Shown here: piece by piece, positions 3,810-22,874 of the stretch
Numbering within the stretch: the stretch's first letter is position 1
Layout: every line of letters begins with the position of its first letter
IMG/VR virus record: IMGVR_UViG_3300006920_000219
Span: 1 to 25,570 of that record
From: a virus
DNA: 25,570 bases
Strand: one strand, 5' to 3'
Made by a program: the position numbers and the translations under genes
Notes under the pieces: model-generated
The model's input: only the letters and a program-made list of their open reading frames with translations
Databases searched by the model: none
Told to the model about the DNA's origin: nothing

Positions 3810-3894
3810 TGGTGCGGGTAGCGGGACTTGAACCCACACTCCTTACGGAAACAGATTTTAAGTCTGTCGTGTATACCAATTTCACCATACCCGC
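3810..3894 (-). tRNA. tRNA-Leu(UAA), complete, CCA encoded
   Basis: The minus strand folds as a complete 85-base class II tRNA. The acceptor stem GCGGGTA pairs with TACCCGC and is followed by A and an encoded CCA. The anticodon stem ACAGA/TCTGT closes the loop CTTAAAA, with anticodon TAA at 3860-3858. The variable arm (TTCCGTAAGGAG region) is long, as expected for leucine tRNAs, and the T arm GTGGGTTCAAGTCCC is canonical. The gene lies directly downstream of the integrase, in the same orientation, and is flanked by short repeats, so it is probably the core of attP as well as a possibly functional tRNA. Most attP cores hold only a 3' part of the host tRNA; this one is full length. Confidence 0.93.
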
Positions 3895-4025: not shown

Positions 4026-5054
4026 TCAAGAAAATGCTTCTAAAGCTTCAGTACCGGACTCCAGACCCTTGCCAGCCAAGTTGATGTAACGCTGGGTCAC
4101 CATGATGTTCGAGTGTCCTAGCCAAGCTTGGATGAACGGAGCGGACTTACCTGCCATTGCCAAGCGAGTCCCACAGGTGTGACGCAGGGTGTGAACGATA
4201 AACTCATCGTCGTCGTCCATAGCCATGTCATGTCGCAGCATGTCCCACTGTAGGCGCAGCTTGGAGTCGGTCAGGTCAGCGAACAGCCGATCATTCCCTT
4301 TGCGTCTTTCGACCATCTCAAGCAGTCGCTTTGTCATCGGCACAATCCGCAGCTTGCTGGACTTGTTACCCCCAGCGACCCCTACAGCCAGCAGCCTTGC
4401 CTTGCCATCACGCACATCAGCGAGTCTGAAGTTCAGAATCTCCATTCTACGGAAACCTGTATCGATCCCGAACATGATGAAGTCTGCCAGCCCACCTAAC
4501 CCGCGCTGCTTGCATATCTCCAGCATCTGCTTCTCTTCCTCTACTTCAAAGAAGCGGGTGTTGTGTTCACTCTCACGCCTACGAGTCATCCTTGGCATCA
4601 GGTCAATCCAACCTTCATCCGCTGCTGTCTTAAGCATCACAGACAGGGCAGACAACTTACGGTTGACCGTACCACCACAGTTGCCGCTCTCAGCGAAGTG
4701 AACAGACATCTTACGGACTGCCTCCTGCTTGATAGCCCTCACTGGTGTTTTTTCACCAAGGAAGTTAAGCACATGCCTTGCATTGACCAACTGAGCGTTC
4801 TTAGAGTCAGCCCAGCGGGTTTGCTTGGTGATCTTGAAGACATACCCAAGAGTGACACCGCTTTCGTCTTCTGGAGCTACTGTGACGTTCTGGCGTTGTG
4901 GAGTGAACCGCTGAAGCTTCCGCTTTTCCCACTTCGCCTCTTCCATCGTGTTGATGCGTACAGCATCCTCTTCAGACTTCACTGTGGCTCGGAAGCGATC
5001 CGCACCACTGCCCACGTAAACTACCCATGAGCTTCCCCGTTTCATGTAAGGCAT
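4026..5054 (-). CDS. int: Phage integrase, tyrosine recombinase
   Basis: This 342-residue tyrosine recombinase has a complete active site: arginine R202 in DTGFRRMEI, a lysine at K231 or K234 in NKSSKLRI, H288 and R291 in HTLRH, H314 in LGHS, and the nucleophile Y323 in QRYINLA. The N-terminal part is the expected DNA-binding region (arm-binding then SAM-like core-binding domain). It would carry out site-specific integration, most likely into a host tRNA-Leu gene, given the tRNA 130 bp downstream. The ATG at 5054 is preceded by AAAGGAG five bases away, and the gene follows the MarR-like gene by only 14 bp, so the two are probably co-transcribed. Confidence 0.95.
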   Translation of the reverse strand: MPYMKRGSSWVVYVGSGADRFRATVKSEEDAVRINTMEEAKWEKRKLQRFTPQRQNVTVAPEDESGVTLGYVFKITKQTRWADSKNAQLVNARHVLNFLGEKTPVRAIKQEAVRKMSVHFAESGNCGGTVNRKLSALSVMLKTAADEGWIDLMPRMTRRRESEHNTRFFEVEEEKQMLEICKQRGLGGLADFIMFGIDTGFRRMEILNFRLADVRDGKARLLAVGVAGGNKSSKLRIVPMTKRLLEMVERRKGNDRLFADLTDSKLRLQWDMLRHDMAMDDDDEFIVHTLRHTCGTRLAMAGKSAPFIQAWLGHSNIMVTQRYINLAGKGLESGTEALEAFS

Positions 5055-5068
5055 AAAGGCTCCTTTGA

Positions 5069-5398
5069 TTAGATAATTTCTTCTAACAACTTCTCCCCTG
5101 CAGCAGTCAGGGAGACCAGCTTCTGTTTCCTATCCATTGGATTTTCATCCGCTTGGACAAGCCCCAGACCCTTCACGCCCATCGCTGGACGACCATCAGA
5201 TAACGCTTGCAAGTAGCGTGATGCGCTCGCATACGGCACGTTAGAAGACTCTGCAAGGCTTCTCATGGAGCGTTCTGGCTCTAAAGCAACTGCAAGCAAG
5301 AACAGAATTTGAGAGACCGGCATATTAGGATCTACATTCCTAAAAGTTTCTAAAAATTTAACTTTGTCTATGAGTTTAGTTGTAGACAGCTTTTTCAT
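5069..5398 (-). CDS. MarR-like winged-helix transcriptional regulator
   Basis: The 109-residue protein has a winged-helix layout: helices, then SMRSLAESSNVPYASASRYLQAL as helix-turn-helix (about residues 45-67), and a wing ending DRKQKLVSLTAAGEKLLEEI, a typical MarR-type C-terminal pattern. I choose the ATG at 5398 because AGAGGG lies just upstream; an upstream TTG at 5422 has no such site. The gene sits immediately before the integrase and behind a long AT-rich leader, which suggests it controls the lysogeny block. No CI-like repressor is visible in this window, so this is the best candidate for the lysogeny regulator, but that role is inferred. Confidence 0.8.
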   Translation of the reverse strand: MKKLSTTKLIDKVKFLETFRNVDPNMPVSQILFLLAVALEPERSMRSLAESSNVPYASASRYLQALSDGRPAMGVKGLGLVQADENPMDRKQKLVSLTAAGEKLLEEII

Positions 5399-5425
5399 TT
5401 CATTCCCTCTGTATCGGAGCAAAGA

Positions 5426-6831: not shown

Positions 6832-7566
6832 TTAGGCCGCAGCTTGAGCTATGAATCTGTTCTTCAGCGAACCATGCACGACGATCACAGGATCAGCTTT
6901 GCGGGTATTGACGCCACCATCACAGGCTTGGCACTCAGCGCAGGTCTTGCGCTTACCTGCCTCAGCACTTGCTGGACAAACAAACTCGCCAGCTTGTAGC
7001 GGCTGTGCTTCAGTGCGAATTCTGAAAGTCCTATAGCCAGCAGCTTTTGCTTCAGTGCGGTCTGTCTCATTATCAGCAGATGCCATGCACCACTGCATAA
7101 CCGCTAGGGACTTCCCAGACTTCCACTGATGGGTGTAGCCCATGTGACCAGCAGACTGAGCCAGCAGAGCCGCCCAGACAGCAGCAGGGACAGCAGCAGG
7201 ATCACCATAAGTACCTAAGCGAACCACGCGACCCGCAGCAGCTTCGTTAGCCGCTCCAGCGTCCTGCGGATAGATGCCTCGCTCGATACCAGCAGCCACA
7301 GATCGCGCACCCTGCCCCAGATTGACATAGCATGAGCCACCTAAGCCGCGACGATGAGGACAAGAGCCACAGATAGCCGCATCGTCCAGATTCCTAGCGT
7401 TATCCACTGGGGACTTACCGTTATCTCTGAGGATGTACGTTTGAACTACATCACCGGTTTTGCTGTTCGTGCTTTTCTTAGTGATAGCCACTACGACGAT
7501 ATTTTCACCGTTCAAGAGTGATTCACCACGATAAATAATGAAGCCTGTAGGTTGTTTCGTTTTCAT
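6832..7566 (-). CDS. Cysteine-rich conserved early phage protein
   Basis: The 244-residue protein has two cysteine clusters: C66, C69 and C79 in ICGSCPHRR...GGSCYVN, and C197, C209, C212 and C215 in VCPASAEAGKRKTCAECQAC. Other recognisable blocks are RLGTYGDPAAVP, GYTHQW and ASADNETDR. I know this layout from conserved hypothetical proteins of many phages. The spacing suggests metal (zinc or iron-sulphur) binding, but no enzyme activity can be assigned. The ATG at 7566 follows AAAAAGGA. It is the largest gene of the first early block. Confidence 0.85.
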   Translation of the reverse strand: MKTKQPTGFIIYRGESLLNGENIVVVAITKKSTNSKTGDVVQTYILRDNGKSPVDNARNLDDAAICGSCPHRRGLGGSCYVNLGQGARSVAAGIERGIYPQDAGAANEAAAGRVVRLGTYGDPAAVPAAVWAALLAQSAGHMGYTHQWKSGKSLAVMQWCMASADNETDRTEAKAAGYRTFRIRTEAQPLQAGEFVCPASAEAGKRKTCAECQACDGGVNTRKADPVIVVHGSLKNRFIAQAAA

Positions 7567-15201: not shown

Positions 15202-18200
15202 TTATTCTCTTTCGCCCATCGGATAGTCGTTCGCCAAGTGGTTTAAGAAGGTAGACATCGGAGCTACGTTATTCAGAGGAACAAGCTTCCCCCACGATTT
15301 GATGTCCTGAGATGTCGTCTGGTATTCATCCGAGATCCCGTTTCGAATCAGCTTCTTCATGGAGAGCAGACTTTGTATCGCCTGATAGGTAGGGTTCGAT
15401 GCCATGCTTGATAAGTCAGAGGTTGTCCTCATCCCGTTGAACATAGGGAATGGAGACATCGTGTCGTAGATGTTAGGAAGCAGGGAAGCTTGAGCCACCT
15501 TACCGAAGCCGTTAGCCACGATCTGGGACGAACTCATCCTCTTGTTAAGGAATTCCTGTCTCTTTTCTTCGCTCATGCCCTGTGCCTGAAGCATGGTTCT
15601 ACCCATGTAAGTCACTGAGGCCATCACACCACCATGCAACATAGTAGACATGGTCGTCCAATCCCTATGGTTCAAGGCGTACAGCATGGACTTGTTCCAT
15701 CCTTGGATAGAGAAGTTCATGAACTGGAACACCGTCTGCCCAAGGGTTGTCCCCATGAGAGGAACCATCGATGCCAAGTCAGGCTCTTGAATTACCCTAC
15801 GAGATTCACGGTTCACTGCAGTCAAGAACTGTGCATGCTCTTCAGGGTGAGTCTTCATCCAACCAGCGAAGTCCAGCTTGTATGCCTTGCCGAACTCTCC
15901 CTTCTTAGGAGCAGAGAACTTCTGGATACTTTCCAAGACTGCAGCGTACTGCTTCTCACTGAGTCCCATCGCCGCTAACCTATCCTTTGTGAGGAAGGTA
16001 GAGCCACCAGCCATAGTGATGCTCTCACCAGAGCGGGTGATCTTGGTGTTGTGTGCGGCATCTACGATGTGGTTAACTAAAGCAATCGCATGGACACGCT
16101 TCTGTTGAATCATCAGAGGAGTCATGCCTGTATAGTCAAGCACACCCTTAGACATCTTCTTCAGTCCTGTGTCGAGGCGGTCAAGACCTCGGTTCATCGC
16201 AGTGTTGCCGCTGTTACGAACCCAATCATCTGCAGCCTTGAACTCGATGCGAGAGATGTACTCACTACCTACACCACCAATAGTGTTCTCAAGATGGTCT
16301 AGGTAGTCATGAGGAGCTTTACCTGTAAGGATGTCCCGCTTCAAAGACTCTAGCTCTCTCACTGCTGCTGTGGTGGCTTTCCAGCCCATCGATCCGGCAA
16401 TCTGAGATAGCTCGGACATCTGGTTCCAGACCGCTCCACCCATCAGTCGAATGACATTGAAGTCACGCCACATCTGGAAGCCCTTACGAATTCCAGTGAA
16501 CTCCTCACGAGGGTTCGCTTGAATCTCATCGAAGGCCAACTTCAGGTGATCACGGTATTCCTTGAGCTTGCTATCAGGAAGGGAGGTTGCACCAAACTTA
16601 TTGCGAGTCACCTCTTCAATAAGGCTGTCGATGTCGCCTACCTTGTAGACATCCAGATGCTTTGCCAAGGACACGTTACCGGCTGTCTTACGGAGGTATG
16701 GCTCGACCACATCAAAGGCGTTTGAATGCACGAAGTCGTTCAAGGACATCGTCACCTTCTCACCTGAAGCTGTCGTCACCACTTCACTGTAGGCTTCCTT
16801 GATGGTGTTCCGATGCTTGAGCGATGAACTCAATCTTCCAACGTCATTCCCTGCCGCAGAGCGCGCTGTTGGAAACATATCATCGATCAGTTCCCAAGCT
16901 TCCTTCTCAGAGAAACCACCCTTACGCATCATGGAGTTCTTCAGGGCTTCCCTGTCTGAACCACGCATCATGTTTTCTAGGAGGTCACCAGTGCGGTTAG
17001 CATGAGCATCCTCCACGGTGGAGATATACCACTTCGCCCACTGTGTAGACTTCTCGTCGCTTATCCCCTGCCGACCAGCTTGATAGGCTCTTGCCCACCA
17101 ACCTTCAGCTTGCTCTGCACCGAAGCGTTGGATGACGCTGTCCCACTTCAAACGATCATGCTTACGGGGTAGGTAGAAGGGATTTGCTTCCAGTGCGCCA
17201 ATGATGCTCTCAACGCCTGTCTCAGGGTCTTTAACAGTGGTCTCTGTCAGCCCCCTCTTCGTCCCGCCTTCACGGTAGAGAGGGTTGTTGATATGCTCAC
17301 GAGCCTCATCAAGTACCTTGCGAATTGCTTCACCGGCCTTGGATGTCATTGCATGGTGGTCACCCTCGAAGCCACGGATGTAGTTGCTGACAAGCTCACC
17401 GAACTCCTCGAATGCTTCTCCCTTGTCACTACCCTTCCTACCAGACTCAGAGAACCACGTTTCGAAAGCTGGATAGGCTTCCTTCCGCATCTTCAATGAC
17501 CATGAGTTGGCAAGCTGGGTTGTGTCATCCCATGCATTAGCTTTGACTACAGAGTGATCCTTGTAGCCCACTGTGCTTCCGAATAACTTAGAGGCAAGGT
17601 TACGAACCATCTGGGGAACCTTAGCTCCACCAAGCTTATGCTCAAGAGATAGGCCGATACCAAACACTGCGGACACGTTGGCATCGTTTGCAGCCTTGAC
17701 CGTTTCTGGATCAACACCCGCATGTGATGGCTGCAGTTCTTCATCCAAGTGAAGCTTGCGCTCCTTCTGGCTGTATGGATTAACCAATCTAACATCCAGC
17801 TTCTCATCAATCAGTTTGTCAGAGATGCCGAGGGACTTGATAAACAGGTTCGTCTCTTTATCATCCATGCCAAGAAGCTTGCGGATTGTGTCCACGAACT
17901 TACTGAGCATCGTCTTCCCTTCTGCTGTCTTGATCTTAGAGAGGAACTCAACGAAGGGCTTCGCAGATGCTCCACCGTACAGACCGGCAGAGAATTCGTA
18001 CATATCAGATAGGTAGTAGCTACTGAACCCAGCATCCTTTGCAGCTTGCTTTGCTTCCTTATAGAGGCCATCCATTTCCGCATACAGCTGTCCATGAGCT
18101 GTGTTTGGGTTCGCTTTGCCATAGTCCAGTTTGTAGACTTGAACAGCGTGGGCTATCTCGTGGATCTTCGTGGTATCCAGAGTGGTCTTGCTGATGTAGA

Positions 18201-19875
18201 TAGCATGCTCGTGAGGATGATAATAAGCTGCAGCACTTCGCGGCATCTCACTCTTAGGAATAGTGTAGACCTTGACATCACTACCTAGCTGCTCCTTCAA
18301 GCGAGTCGCTAAGGCTGAGTGCATTGGGTCGCCCTTGCTAATCAGATTGCTCAACACAACAGAGGCTGGCTCTGATGGATGCTCAACACCGGCCTTAGAC
18401 TTAGGGACATGCTCAGTGCGGGTAGATTGAACCGTGTGGATTGGCGCAGGGACTTCTGCCTCTGTGCCTGTCTTCGACATACCCTTTGATTCAACAGCAC
18501 CTTCAACCAGAGCAGCAGCCCTCTTAGCATCATTTCCTGGCGCATTGATCGGTACGTACAGTTCACGACCTTGTGGGTTGTGCTGGTACAGCTTCATGAT
18601 CTCGTGACTCTCATCACGGATGTTCTGAATGATCTTCGCTACTTCTGGATCGACACTATGCTTAGGGGCTGCGTACTTTGTTGGACGGAAGGCTTCTTCA
18701 CCTTGTGGGGTGAGCTTGTAGCCAGAGCTTTCCAACTCAACTGCCTTCAACTCTTGAGACTTCGTGTAGCCGAACTGGCCTAACTTCATGTTCTCTTCAG
18801 AGAGGTGTGACTTCGCGACACCCTTTGTACTCATCGCTGCGCCACCTACACCACCAAGAGCGAGTCCCATCAAACCCGACATGTATAGGTCGTCATGGGT
18901 CGCCATAGGCCGGAGGTGCTGTGTGGCTGCATCAAACGCTACGTTAGCGGTAGCTGCTGCAAGACCTGATCTAACAGCGTTAGCCGTCCTAGAAGCCTTT
19001 ACTGCAAGACCAAAAGGAGGTAACGCCATCAGCAAAGAGTCAAAGTCAGGCAGCGTTCCGATCAGACCACCAGCCAGCGTTGCTCCTAAGCCCATCCTTC
19101 CAAGCTCTTCGGAGTTCTGCATTGACTTCCGCATACGATCAGCGCGAAGTGCCGCTTCCTTGTCCGACTTAGCCTGTGTGATATACGCCCAGTAGGTGTG
19201 GGGAATATCCTTCAGGTAGCCATCCATCCGCTCCTTATTCCAAGTGAAGTCGGGATCGACATGGTCTGATATTCCACGCTCTTGCCACCAGTTATAGACA
19301 GAGTTCTCTTGCTGAAAAGTGAGAGAAGCAGCACGAGGAGTATCGGCAATATTATTAAGAACCCCTCCATGCTCATACTGTTGCTGCTGCCGTTGCTTAT
19401 CCAGTTCGGCAGATGAGGGTGCAGCAGTAAGAGGGCTAGGATTGAACCCCGCCATGTTGGAGGTATCTTTGTAAGGGGTAGCACCACCCACGTTGAATTT
19501 GCTCAGGTAGTCTTTTGTTTCCTTCCACGGCTTCCCACTAGCCAACGCCTTAACGGCGTTACCACCACCGTTGTACTCAGTCAGAGCCATGTCCATGTTC
19601 CCATTGAACCTCTTCAGGTTGGTTGATAGATAGGCTCCAGCTGCATCTGAGGACTTGTGAAAATCGTTGTAGTCCTCAGGGTTTACAAGACCGAACTTCT
19701 TACCTGTCGCTTCAGTAAACTGGAAGTGACCCATCGCCCCCTTAGGGGACAACATGTCTTTGCCATTACTAGATTCGATGCCCCAGACTTTGCCAAGGGT
19801 TCCAGTAGGAAGACCATACTTCTGATCCTTCTCTGCTAGAACCCGTGTAGCTTCTTCATTGGATGGTGCTGTCAT
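15202..19875 (-). CDS. Internal virion protein D, T7 gp16-like, with lytic transglycosylase
   Basis: This is a 1557-residue protein; T7 gp16 has 1318. Residues about 10-125 form a lytic transglycosylase-like domain with catalytic E34 in WGIESSNG, then GAMGHFQFT and TEYNGGGNA. It would open the peptidoglycan during DNA injection. Residues about 565-635 contain HEIAHA (H572, E573, H576), an HExxH zinc-protease motif, with E627 in YEFSAGLYG as possible third ligand. T7 gp16 has no such motif, and the insertion may explain the extra length. Hydrophobic stretches near residues 255-360 fit the membrane-crossing channel role. The C-terminal part (FMNFSIQGWNKSMLYAL) resembles other phage injection proteins. 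The ATG at 19875 shares a base with the gp15 stop (TAATG), preceded by AAAGGT. Confidence 0.93.
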   Translation of the reverse strand: MTAPSNEEATRVLAEKDQKYGLPTGTLGKVWGIESSNGKDMLSPKGAMGHFQFTEATGKKFGLVNPEDYNDFHKSSDAAGAYLSTNLKRFNGNMDMALTEYNGGGNAVKALASGKPWKETKDYLSKFNVGGATPYKDTSNMAGFNPSPLTAAPSSAELDKQRQQQQYEHGGVLNNIADTPRAASLTFQQENSVYNWWQERGISDHVDPDFTWNKERMDGYLKDIPHTYWAYITQAKSDKEAALRADRMRKSMQNSEELGRMGLGATLAGGLIGTLPDFDSLLMALPPFGLAVKASRTANAVRSGLAAATANVAFDAATQHLRPMATHDDLYMSGLMGLALGGVGGAAMSTKGVAKSHLSEENMKLGQFGYTKSQELKAVELESSGYKLTPQGEEAFRPTKYAAPKHSVDPEVAKIIQNIRDESHEIMKLYQHNPQGRELYVPINAPGNDAKRAAALVEGAVESKGMSKTGTEAEVPAPIHTVQSTRTEHVPKSKAGVEHPSEPASVVLSNLISKGDPMHSALATRLKEQLGSDVKVYTIPKSEMPRSAAAYYHPHEHAIYISKTTLDTTKIHEIAHAVQVYKLDYGKANPNTAHGQLYAEMDGLYKEAKQAAKDAGFSSYYLSDMYEFSAGLYGGASAKPFVEFLSKIKTAEGKTMLSKFVDTIRKLLGMDDKETNLFIKSLGISDKLIDEKLDVRLVNPYSQKERKLHLDEELQPSHAGVDPETVKAANDANVSAVFGIGLSLEHKLGGAKVPQMVRNLASKLFGSTVGYKDHSVVKANAWDDTTQLANSWSLKMRKEAYPAFETWFSESGRKGSDKGEAFEEFGELVSNYIRGFEGDHHAMTSKAGEAIRKVLDEAREHINNPLYREGGTKRGLTETTVKDPETGVESIIGALEANPFYLPRKHDRLKWDSVIQRFGAEQAEGWWARAYQAGRQGISDEKSTQWAKWYISTVEDAHANRTGDLLENMMRGSDREALKNSMMRKGGFSEKEAWELIDDMFPTARSAAGNDVGRLSSSLKHRNTIKEAYSEVVTTASGEKVTMSLNDFVHSNAFDVVEPYLRKTAGNVSLAKHLDVYKVGDIDSLIEEVTRNKFGATSLPDSKLKEYRDHLKLAFDEIQANPREEFTGIRKGFQMWRDFNVIRLMGGAVWNQMSELSQIAGSMGWKATTAAVRELESLKRDILTGKAPHDYLDHLENTIGGVGSEYISRIEFKAADDWVRNSGNTAMNRGLDRLDTGLKKMSKGVLDYTGMTPLMIQQKRVHAIALVNHIVDAAHNTKITRSGESITMAGGSTFLTKDRLAAMGLSEKQYAAVLESIQKFSAPKKGEFGKAYKLDFAGWMKTHPEEHAQFLTAVNRESRRVIQEPDLASMVPLMGTTLGQTVFQFMNFSIQGWNKSMLYALNHRDWTTMSTMLHGGVMASVTYMGRTMLQAQGMSEEKRQEFLNKRMSSSQIVANGFGKVAQASLLPNIYDTMSPFPMFNGMRTTSDLSSMASNPTYQAIQSLLSMKKLIRNGISDEYQTTSQDIKSWGKLVPLNNVAPMSTFLNHLANDYPMGERE

Positions 19876-22244
19876 TACTTACCTTTTTCCTTATATATTT
19901 TGAACAGTTCGCTCAATGGCTTGCGCTCGTTACCATCCTTCTGGATTTGTGCGAAGGCATTTCTGTTGAAAATATTCTTGTTGAATACTGGTGAACCGGC
20001 ATGTGTGTCGTAATGCTCAAGAGCGTACTTGTCTTTCTTCTGCAATTCCTTCAACTCAGCTTCGATTCGCTTCTGGAATTTCGGATGTTCTCGATCCAGA
20101 TTTGCTTCGGTTTGTACCTTCAGCTTGTCTGCATCTATCTGCCCACCGACCCATGTTGAGAAGTCCTGCTTAGAAATTTCAATTCGACGATTATCTTTGT
20201 CAGTAAGAAGCTCCCCGTTATTCAACACTAGGAATGTTCCTGTGCTTGTTGGGTGGAGGACGATGTTCTTACCATCGAGGTGCTGTGACTTTGCAGTAGC
20301 TTGAGCAACCTGAGTCTTGTACCGCTCCATCCAATAGCCAATGTCCTCACCTTGAGGAACCTCAGGTAGGTCGTGGCGCGAGTAAAGGACGTTATTGATC
20401 TTGACTGAACGCTTAGGGTCAGCGAGATACTGTACGGTTGACTGCAGAGCTACCTCTGGCTCCATACCGGCCTTGATCAGTACTTCTGAGCGACTACGTA
20501 TTTGGCTCTTGATCTGTGTGAGGTTAGGAACATCGTTACCGAAGAAGCCTCTCATCCATGATGCAGTCCCGCCAAAGAACGCTGGGTTGAATACTTGATC
20601 AGCAGCTGAGTCCAGCTTCGCAAGTTTCCCTTGATAGTCTTTAGGATCGAGACCCTTCCGGTTACCTTCGATAACCCAACGAGTGGCCTCCTCGATATCT
20701 GAAGAGCCGCCGACTGCCACCATCATTTGAATGGACGAGAGGGTCTCTAAATCTTTGGAGTTGCCGATCAACTTAGCGGCATACTCAGGGTTCACACTAT
20801 TGATACGCATGAATTCCTCAAGACCGGCCTTACCTACCTCGTTAAGTTTTCCAGTAGGTTCACCTGTCTTGCCCCAGCCAAGGGAAGCCAAGTTCATCAG
20901 GCCACCTACGATTCGATTCTTCATCTCAGGGTTGACCACGTTATTACGTGACCACTCCAGCATCTCCCTTTCAGGAGACCACGGGCTACCAGAATCTCTA
21001 GCGGCTTGCTGTCGCTGTCGCAGAATGTCAGTGGCTACGTCATTCAGGTTGGCATCAGTAACCACGCCAGTTGGTGAGACCACCTTCATTGCAGGTAGAT
21101 GAGAGAACGCACCTACATCCAATGCTGCAGCAACTGCTTGATTGACAGCAGCGTGGGAGGAATCTGAAGTTGCTTGAGCGGCATACTTTGAGTTCATGTT
21201 CTGCAGCTTCGTTCGAGCAGCCTCATCAGCATTGATGATTGCCATCGCTGATTGATAGGAGATCACATCCACATTTGCTGGAAGCTTTCGCCATACATCA
21301 AACGCTTTACGATCAAGTTGACCATCAGTGGCTGACACCGCAAACGGCTCAATCTCTTTGTTGACTCGGATGTGTGCGTTCTTATTGAACACCGTGTCAG
21401 TGTGATTGACTAGTGCCTGTGTGTGATCCGTCCCTAGAAGCTCAGTGACGGTAGACCCGTTGCTCAACTTGGTAGAGGTGAAAGCAGCTACGAACTCCTT
21501 GTCACCCTTAACGGATGCAGACGAAAGAACACCCTTGAGAGCAGCCTTCGCTTCCTCAGGTTCTTGCATCAAGATGCCTGTACTCCACAGCTTGTTGTAA
21601 TGCTCAATGACTGCAGCGGCTCGTTCAACAGAAGGCTTACCGGCACTCGACTCGAAAGAGTTGATCAAGCTTGTAGATGCACCCGCCACAGCAGCTGCCT
21701 TGAACTCCGCATCCATCTTCTGAGTATTCGCAGAGATGATCGAGTCGCGGAAGTTGCCGTAGTTCTTATCGAAACCCGCAGCTGTATATTCAGACTGACC
21801 AGCCATCAGCTCTGACCGCTTGCTTGATAAGTACTCCTCAACCTTCGCACCAGCCCCCTCACCTTCAAAGCGGAGTGCGCCTCGCGCTATAGAAGAAGCG
21901 GTCTCTTCACGCAGATTTCTGTTTAGATTTTCACCATATACGTGCTGTGCCATAGCCACATATGCTGGCGACTGTGAGGCAAGAAGGGTTCCATCTTTAA
22001 GTTTTTTGCCCAACTCAGCAACAGGCATGGAGTTCGCGAAGGCACGAGCCTCTGCTTTGTTTTGCTCATCCGTCTGTGCGCGTAACTTATCAATGGCTGG
22101 TGTGGCTGCACCGAAGGCTTCTGCCAGTTGAAATGCTGCTGATGCTCGTGGGTCAAAACGGGCTTGCTCAGTTTGGATGTTCGCAGAGGCAGTCGTCTGA
22201 AGTGCTTCTGGACGCGGGTCATACCCGACTTGTACTCGTGCCAA
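19875..22244 (-). CDS. Internal virion protein C, T7 gp15-like
   Basis: The 789-residue protein, close to T7 gp15 (747), lies between the gp14 and gp16 homologues and should form the internal core and the DNA-ejection channel across the periplasm. It is mostly helical, with an Ala/Gln-rich N-terminus (RFDPRASAAFQLAEAFGAATPAIDKLRAQTDEQNKAEARAFA) that is typical of this family, and a charged helical end (AELKELQKKDKYALEHYDTH). It starts with TTG at 22244 after AAGGAGA, a strong ribosome binding site; the start codon is rare. The stop overlaps the gp16 start. Confidence 0.9.
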   Translation of the reverse strand: MARVQVGYDPRPEALQTTASANIQTEQARFDPRASAAFQLAEAFGAATPAIDKLRAQTDEQNKAEARAFANSMPVAELGKKLKDGTLLASQSPAYVAMAQHVYGENLNRNLREETASSIARGALRFEGEGAGAKVEEYLSSKRSELMAGQSEYTAAGFDKNYGNFRDSIISANTQKMDAEFKAAAVAGASTSLINSFESSAGKPSVERAAAVIEHYNKLWSTGILMQEPEEAKAALKGVLSSASVKGDKEFVAAFTSTKLSNGSTVTELLGTDHTQALVNHTDTVFNKNAHIRVNKEIEPFAVSATDGQLDRKAFDVWRKLPANVDVISYQSAMAIINADEAARTKLQNMNSKYAAQATSDSSHAAVNQAVAAALDVGAFSHLPAMKVVSPTGVVTDANLNDVATDILRQRQQAARDSGSPWSPEREMLEWSRNNVVNPEMKNRIVGGLMNLASLGWGKTGEPTGKLNEVGKAGLEEFMRINSVNPEYAAKLIGNSKDLETLSSIQMMVAVGGSSDIEEATRWVIEGNRKGLDPKDYQGKLAKLDSAADQVFNPAFFGGTASWMRGFFGNDVPNLTQIKSQIRSRSEVLIKAGMEPEVALQSTVQYLADPKRSVKINNVLYSRHDLPEVPQGEDIGYWMERYKTQVAQATAKSQHLDGKNIVLHPTSTGTFLVLNNGELLTDKDNRRIEISKQDFSTWVGGQIDADKLKVQTEANLDREHPKFQKRIEAELKELQKKDKYALEHYDTHAGSPVFNKNIFNRNAFAQIQKDGNERKPLSELFKIYKEKGK

Positions 22245-22259: not shown

Positions 22260-22874
22260 TTAAATTTTAGGTTTTCTGTAGTCTTGGTAGGTAGTACCAA
22301 TCTTCAGAGCTGCACCGAAGTAGTCCGGCATCTGCGGAGTCTTCAATGCGTTGATACGGGATTTCGCATCCGTATTAATATTCATGCGCTGGCCTTCGAT
22401 TGCCATGTTCTTGTTATCCAGATTGTTCTGAACACCAGCGTTGTACTGCGCTTGCTTACCTGAGAGGTCGGCAAGGAGAGCATCTACAGACAAGCCAGAC
22501 ACACCGTTCTCACCAGCCGCTACCGTTGCAGTAGCTTTGGCTTGTCGCGCTGCTCTGTCGTTCTGCTCAGACTTCTGTGAAGCCTCATTGGCAGACTGAA
22601 TACCCATCAGGTTTGTTTGGTTGATGTTGGCATCACGAGCAACCATCGTGTTCTCATACTGACGCTCGTTCGTCGCTGACTGAGCCGAAGCGGCCTGCTG
22701 CTGACCGTAGAGTCCAGCCATTGTTGAAGCCACACTCGCCCCAGCCAGCACACCCGCACTAATGCTGCCTCCTGCACCTATGAGACCTGCTGTGGCTGCA
22801 GTAGCTGCTGTGGTGGCTGTTGCTGCAGCTGCTGCCTGACCTACTAGCAGGGCTATCGTTGTTGGTTCACACAT
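22260..22874 (-). CDS. Internal virion protein B, T7 gp14-like
   Basis: The 204-residue protein (T7 gp14: 196) has an Ala/Thr/Gly-rich hydrophobic N-terminal third (LLVGQAAAAATATTAATAATAGLIGAGGSISAGVLAGASVASTMAGLY), then a helical Gln/Asn-rich body (QQQAASAQSATNERQYENTMVARDANINQTNL). In T7, gp14 is ejected first and forms a pore in the outer membrane. The ATG at 22874 overlaps the end of the preceding gene by eight bases. Confidence 0.9.
   Translation of the reverse strand: MCEPTTIALLVGQAAAAATATTAATAATAGLIGAGGSISAGVLAGASVASTMAGLYGQQQAASAQSATNERQYENTMVARDANINQTNLMGIQSANEASQKSEQNDRAARQAKATATVAAGENGVSGLSVDALLADLSGKQAQYNAGVQNNLDNKNMAIEGQRMNINTDAKSRINALKTPQMPDYFGAALKIGTTYQDYRKPKI

Follow-up and report, generated by a model that had tools for sequence, protein, structure and literature searches.

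The closest solved counterpart of the protein described here is gp48 of phage PhiM1, a tetrameric ejection protein (TEP; PDB 8vb2). In the available parts of its description, the stretch Asp268-Asp528, inserted in the hub, is named an endolysin/exotransglycosidase-like domain, an assignment made via BLASTP and DALI, and peptidoglycan degradation is the proposed role (PMC11440229); the words protease, peptidase and metallo are absent from the main text of that paper. A second counterpart is the virion RNA polymerase (vRNAP) of phage N4, which is injected with the DNA and whose C1/polyvalent metallopeptidase (MPTase) module is a zincin with an HExxH motif. As far as the accessible portion of Iyer 2017 goes, this module belongs to the zincin superfamily, resembles lethal factor and is the commonest polyvalent domain, with autoprocessing or effector roles proposed (PMC5512222); the terms 'gp16', 'phiKMV', 'internal virion' and 'internal core' are missing from its main text. 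An N4 structure preprint mentions HExxH, and the protease words searched for are absent from the DEV preprint. Within the literature searched, outside which most subscription journals lie, no zincin is named in a T7- or phiKMV-type gp16, so that the place of such a module in the T7/phiKMV-type core ejectosome, as described below, looks new.

Architecture of the gp16-like ejection protein

The window, which is the whole 25,570-base stretch of an IMG/VR virus record, carries its late genes on the minus strand, in a T7-like order. The gp12 position (assigned from position only) and a gp13-like gene are followed by the genes for gp14-like (22260..22874; PF24072, E 2.7e-28), gp15-like (19875..22244; phrog_23202, E 8.7e-158) and gp16-like (15202..19875) internal virion proteins, a tail fibre and terminase; the gene for a T7-type RNA polymerase lies farther along. 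The 1557-residue gp16-like protein matches phrog_342, 'internal virion protein with endolysin domain', over its whole length (E 1.5e-174), and this match, the gp12-gp13-gp14-gp15-gp16-fibre order and a T7-type hub identify it as a T7 gp16-type ejection protein. Adjoining the RNA polymerase gene are a tyrosine recombinase (4026-5054, minus strand; PF00589, E 3.3e-18; phrog_1, E 1.2e-37), with tRNA-Leu(taa) beside it (3810-3894, minus strand), and a winged-helix-like regulator (5069-5422, minus strand; phrog_9665), from which the window phage looks like a temperate T7-like phage. A conserved protein of unknown function is encoded at 6832-7566 on the minus strand (phrog_2554, E 3.4e-68) and weakly resembles dihaem cytochrome c (PF09626, E 9.2e-5).

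The transglycosylase that the sequence-only reading had expected at the N-terminus was found there as an SLT domain (residues 14-122, nucleotides 19510..19836; PF01464, E 1.3e-11). A Kyte-Doolittle scan revealed hydrophobic segments at residues 267-285 (19021..19077) and 330-348 (18832..18888), compared with 328-348 and 387-413 in T7 gp16. The zincin (metallopeptidase) module occupies residues ~489-690 (17806..18411, minus strand), as delimited by AlphaFold2 models, profile matches and a fold match of Z 11.2, and it is predicted to be a unit of about 200 residues that folds independently. It is followed by the hub region at residues ~774-972 (16960..17556), for which the part after the zincin of a low-confidence 821-residue model matched residues 532-770 of T7 gp16 (9jyy_I; Z 6.8, rmsd 4.5, 181 aligned). 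Since alignment to T7 gp16 with hhalign paired segments 16-376, 601-814 and 1100-1202, and the hub region has this T7 counterpart, the zincin is an insert between conserved T7 segments, with the transglycosylase/membrane region on its N-terminal side and the T7-type hub after it. The 821-residue model (pLDDT 68, pTM 0.39) is too weak for reading the arrangement of domains and was used for the zincin island and, cautiously, for the hub match; in it, low-confidence linkers lie on both sides of the module, and its alignment with 8vb2_A is collinear (372 aligned, rmsd 22.7).

Predicted fold and relatives of the module

AlphaFold2 modelling of residues 477-722 with 54 sequences gave a model of good confidence (pLDDT 86.1, pTM 0.77) with a helix, three strands, the HExxH helix, a long helix and the Glu helix, an order of elements that matches the zincin core as set out in the accessible part of PMC5512222. 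The helix at 91-112 in model numbering holds H96/E97/H100, and a later helix, at 149-157, holds E151; HExxH on one helix and a glutamate ligand on a later one are the arrangement of gluzincins. A zincin-like fold, whose prediction had been proposed as a check on the motif, is thus supported both by the model and by its matches to solved structures. The best of these is the PhiM1 TEP (8vb2_A, chain 268-506; Z 11.2, 147 aligned, rmsd 3.5), and the second is the HExxH domain of N4 vRNAP (9pnt, residues 2129-2362; Z 8.3). Outside phages, the nearest folds are protein-cleaving M34 enzymes, namely lethal factor (Z up to 7.2, 145 aligned), PPEP-3 (Z 5.6) and PPEP-1 (Z 5.0), all below Z 8, the threshold for safe reading of the fold-comparison tool. 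M34 is the MEROPS family name for anthrax lethal factor and the Pro-Pro endopeptidases. These enzymes are secreted proteins outside phage virions; they share the HExxH motif and the downstream glutamate with the window protein, without a significant sequence match (Pfam ATLF, PF07737, in 2 of 21 module members, best E 0.055). From its modelled fold, the stretch of residues ~489-690 is a predicted M34-like gluzincin with zinc-peptidase residues.

Since an N4 paper that names the HExxH motif cites a paper on alpha-ketoglutarate-dependent HExxH oxygenases, and a fold match to 8s5f was obtained (Z 4.1), an oxygenase in place of a peptidase was considered. We regard it as very improbable, because M34 peptidases give the closer match (Z ~7, 145 aligned) and because a glutamate conserved on the second helix fits gluzincins.

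Profile searches agree with the phage matches. Two kinds of module, types A and B, were used as queries. Type B matched 9sfn_G (E 4e-19), 8vb2_A (E 7.8e-9) and N4 vRNAP (E 0.0056), and type A alone matched 9sfn_G (E 1.8e-5) and 8vb2_A (E 0.0038). The profile phrog_2206 (virion RNA polymerase) matched 17 of the 21 module members (best E 5e-13), which together with the 9pnt match indicates homology to the MPTase region of N4 vRNAP (aa 2130-2448). The initial suggestion of similar peptidase modules in polyvalent phage proteins is borne out by these matches and by Iyer 2017. Apart from phrog_2206, Pfam, NCBIfam and PHROGs gave no confident named domain for the module (Tox-MPTase4 in Pfam, at E 0.011, was below the cut-off), and Foldseek against the PDB returned nothing at E <= 0.001, its first rows being a mycobacterial regulator. 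The N4 module is joined to an RNA polymerase, whereas that of the window is joined to a T7-type channel hub, and the former, unlike the slot described here, has already been recognised as a zincin.

The PhiM1 region 268-528 has the same fold as the window module and the same place in a gp16-type protein, and it carries H385, E386, H389 and E449 (sequence numbering of the profile alignment) as HExxH and glutamate. Because it is the top fold match to the zincin and the motif residues align, these data say that PhiM1 TEP 268-528 would be a peptidase rather than an endolysin/exotransglycosidase. In PhiM1 a lysozyme-like domain lies in the OEP, whereas the window protein has its transglycosylase at its own N-terminus, where the TEP has none. 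In gp37 of phiKMV, H423, E424, H427 and E496 align with the four residues of the window; 9sfn_G (1337 aa) is probably this protein, judging from its equal length and the same aligned residues. The first 287 residues of phiKMV gp37 gave no match in Pfam, SLT included, whereas the window protein has an SLT domain.

Conservation and exchange of the module

The HEIAHA motif with H572, E573 and H576 and the downstream E627, from which this analysis started, were confirmed in the 1557-residue ORF. HEIAHA (residues 572-577, 18145..18162, minus strand) lies inside the span 18085-18190 originally given for the motif, but YEFSAGLYG with E627 (17995..17997) lies just outside it. H572 and H576 are predicted zinc ligands, E573 the predicted general base and E627 the predicted third ligand. 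As 7.9% of 4000 shuffles of the window protein contain at least one HExxH, the string alone is weak evidence, and it is conservation that counts. An IMG/VR scan with the single window protein found no relative, but an alignment-based scan did: a profile that joined the window protein to those of the isolates Limnohabitans phage YIMV22061 (49% identity) and Bordetella phage BB8 (42% identity) found 53 loci. Thirty of these are close relatives, of which 22 span the zincin region and eight are fragments starting after it; the 22, the two isolates and the window make up 25 rows, among which HExxH was not selected for, since the scan patterns lie in the C-terminal part. In the 23 distant loci (~20% identity, some of them fragments, one without a listed ORF), HExxH is absent from the 22 with listed ORFs.

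All 25 rows, some of which are near-duplicates, share H572, E573, H576 and E627, and E627 is invariant in 54 of 54 rows; conservation in relatives, the other check suggested at the outset, holds in these rows without exception. They are four of the seven invariant residues among 194 columns (P ~6e-7 if invariant columns fell randomly), and they stay fixed while the identity of the module to that of the window drops to 19%. Across residues 190-1010 of 34 proteins, a partly selected set in which 15 rows had been fetched with patterns favouring the HExxH or Glu motif, only H572, E573, H576, E627 and G669 are invariant. In M34 peptidases, a catalytic tyrosine stands seven residues ahead of the glutamate ligand. 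The corresponding residue in the window, Y620 (18016..18018, minus strand), would presumably play this part by likeness; it is tyrosine in 19 of the 25 rows and missing in six, as well as in five of the nine tabled phage proteins besides the window, including phiKMV gp37, where the position is Asn.

The initial claim that T7 gp16 has no such motif stood for the domain, nothing in T7 gp16 matching the domain profile, but not for the string, as HERLH occurs at residue 559, probably by chance. This HERLH is a trap for annotation by motif alone. A second HExxH in the twin loci L026 and L027 (HETIHG) was likewise put down to chance, as it lies in an apparent linker with no zincin around. In Xanthomonas phage CP2, the same giant protein has a second, different HExxH at ORF residue 1282 (MHEMGHVYLE), possibly another type of zincin.

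A second kind of module, type B, is present in seven of the 25 rows (L001, L013, L017, L022, L024, L026 and L027). Type-B modules are only 19-23% identical to that of the window, while the C-terminal parts of the same proteins are 42-63% identical. In the module tree (20 rows), the five distinct type-B members form one clade with support 100/100, whereas the C-terminal tree scatters them over three positions, and a topology forcing them together was rejected (AU p 0.003, run without L027, the twin of L026). Two zincin lineages have thus been exchanged in one slot among otherwise related proteins, and the conflict between the trees implies that the slot was refilled with another zincin, neither left empty nor decayed; the catalytic residues were kept at each exchange. 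Variation also affects the cell-wall domain at the N-terminus. Four of the rows that extend this far (L002, L015, L026 and L032) are 17-19% identical to the window there while the remainder of the protein is related, and a Pfam scan of three of these four gave no SLT match. The N-terminal ~130 residues of gp16, compared in this way, are a second swappable slot of the same protein.

These patterns bear on whether the domain could be catalytically dead or purely structural, serving for instance to guide DNA along a groove in the virion or to assist folding. A DNA path along a groove formed by the domain is proposed in the available part of the PhiM1 paper (PMC11440229), and the region holding the MPTase is described, in the accessible portion of PMC5512222, as required for packaging of N4 vRNAP. 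Nevertheless, it is exactly the four zincin residues that are invariant despite 19% identity and exchange between lineages, and a solely structural role is considered improbable.

Related modules are found well beyond the window. The type-B module of L013 matched 186 of 50,697 phage records at E <= 0.01, including 145 of Pseudomonas and 32 of Xanthomonas phages, N4-like virion RNA polymerases and one DarB-like protein, and the window module matched 55 phage records. Carriers include phiKMV gp37 and phages of Klebsiella, Xanthomonas, Burkholderia and Achromobacter, while T7, K1-5 and Pasto gave no match to the domain profile. H, E, H and E are kept in nine of nine records hand-chosen, non-randomly, from the match lists (phiKMV gp37, f30-Xaj, LUZ7 vRNAP, KMI5, Paku, MKPT02, Axy09, CP2 and Parlo). 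Among the matches listed, the usual product names are 'hypothetical', 'peptidoglycan lytic exotransglycosylase' and 'internal virion protein (with endolysin domain)'. A scan of genome contigs found one relative, and no cellular origin was traceable. The relative is a 1574-aa ORF with the module that follows a 729-aa ORF on a Pseudomonas putida contig (L148:4192-8916); the pair may be gp15/gp16-like proteins in a prophage.

Proposed role as an injected protease

We consider it probable that the module is an M34-like gluzincin that leaves the virion as part of gp16, regains its fold inside the host and there cuts a protein, which is most likely the host's own. H572, H576 and E627 would hold one zinc, and E573 would activate water for cutting a peptide bond. 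The module, inserted on flexible linkers in the gp16 'hub' of the core ejectosome, would be carried folded in the virion, threaded out through the tail along with the rest of gp16 and refolded in the host. Its target there would most likely be a host protein encountered in the first minutes of infection. By analogy, the cytoplasmic side is favoured as its location after ejection: in the available parts of the sources, the model for T7 places gp16-C (411-1118) in the cytoplasm (PMC8954989), and cytoplasmic refolding is proposed for the C-terminal domain of N4 vRNAP (PMC12633501). The two preceding hydrophobic segments could, as a hairpin, instead leave the module on the periplasmic side.

A protein met after ejection is a likelier substrate than peptidoglycan or a target in virion maturation. 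Maturation is unlikely, because in the parts of the reports at hand the model of the mature PhiM1 particle includes the TEP with the domain in place (PMC11440229) and N4 vRNAP is packaged without processing (PMC5512222). Cutting of peptidoglycan cross-links in aid of the N-terminal transglycosylase would accord with the presence of the SLT domain on the same chain and with the endolysin/exotransglycosidase-like label that the available text on PhiM1 gives the equivalent region (PMC11440229). However, the fold and motif are those of protein-cleaving zincins, the homologous N4 module stands beside an RNA polymerase domain proposed, in the portion of the source at hand, as cytoplasmic (PMC12633501), and phiKMV has a separate lysozyme domain, in gp36. 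Because the module's nearest non-phage folds are protein-cleaving M34 enzymes and homologous modules occur in proteins modelled as entering the cytoplasm, peptidoglycan is the least favoured substrate, and we hold this role to be highly improbable.

As to which protein would be cut, a host protein is placed first and the ejectosome itself second. In the latter case, the zincin would act after ejection on gp16 or on gp15/gp14, freeing a domain or dismantling the channel after DNA entry. Autoprocessing has been proposed for polyvalent MPTases (Iyer 2017, PMC5512222) and T7-type ejectosomes are described as coming apart once delivery is over (PMC11440229), in the accessible parts of both papers, and the low-confidence linkers flanking the module would suit such cleavage. 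On the other hand, PhiM1 and N4 show no cleavage in the virion, the proteins that host the module differ in make-up (gp16, vRNAP, DarB-like), so that a common site in the own protein is not obvious, and T7 and K1-5 lack the module and presumably still disassemble; self-cleavage is rather unlikely.

Cleavage of a host protein, the preferred reading, invites a wider and more tentative proposal, to which we give somewhat less than an even chance: that podovirus core ejectosomes commonly carry a swappable M34-like zincin, overlooked in published structures under the label endolysin, that is injected before the DNA to cut a host protein, which might be a defence, envelope or transcription factor. 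Records that name these proteins 'endolysin' or 'exotransglycosylase' leave the zincin unmentioned, and the functional reading of the solved PhiM1 ejectosome would be corrected. The module bears on the roles of ejection proteins beyond channel-making, as a candidate virion-delivered protease that would act before any phage gene expression. The conservation of this predicted catalytic module in gp16-type proteins, phiKMV included, makes it a directly testable enzyme.
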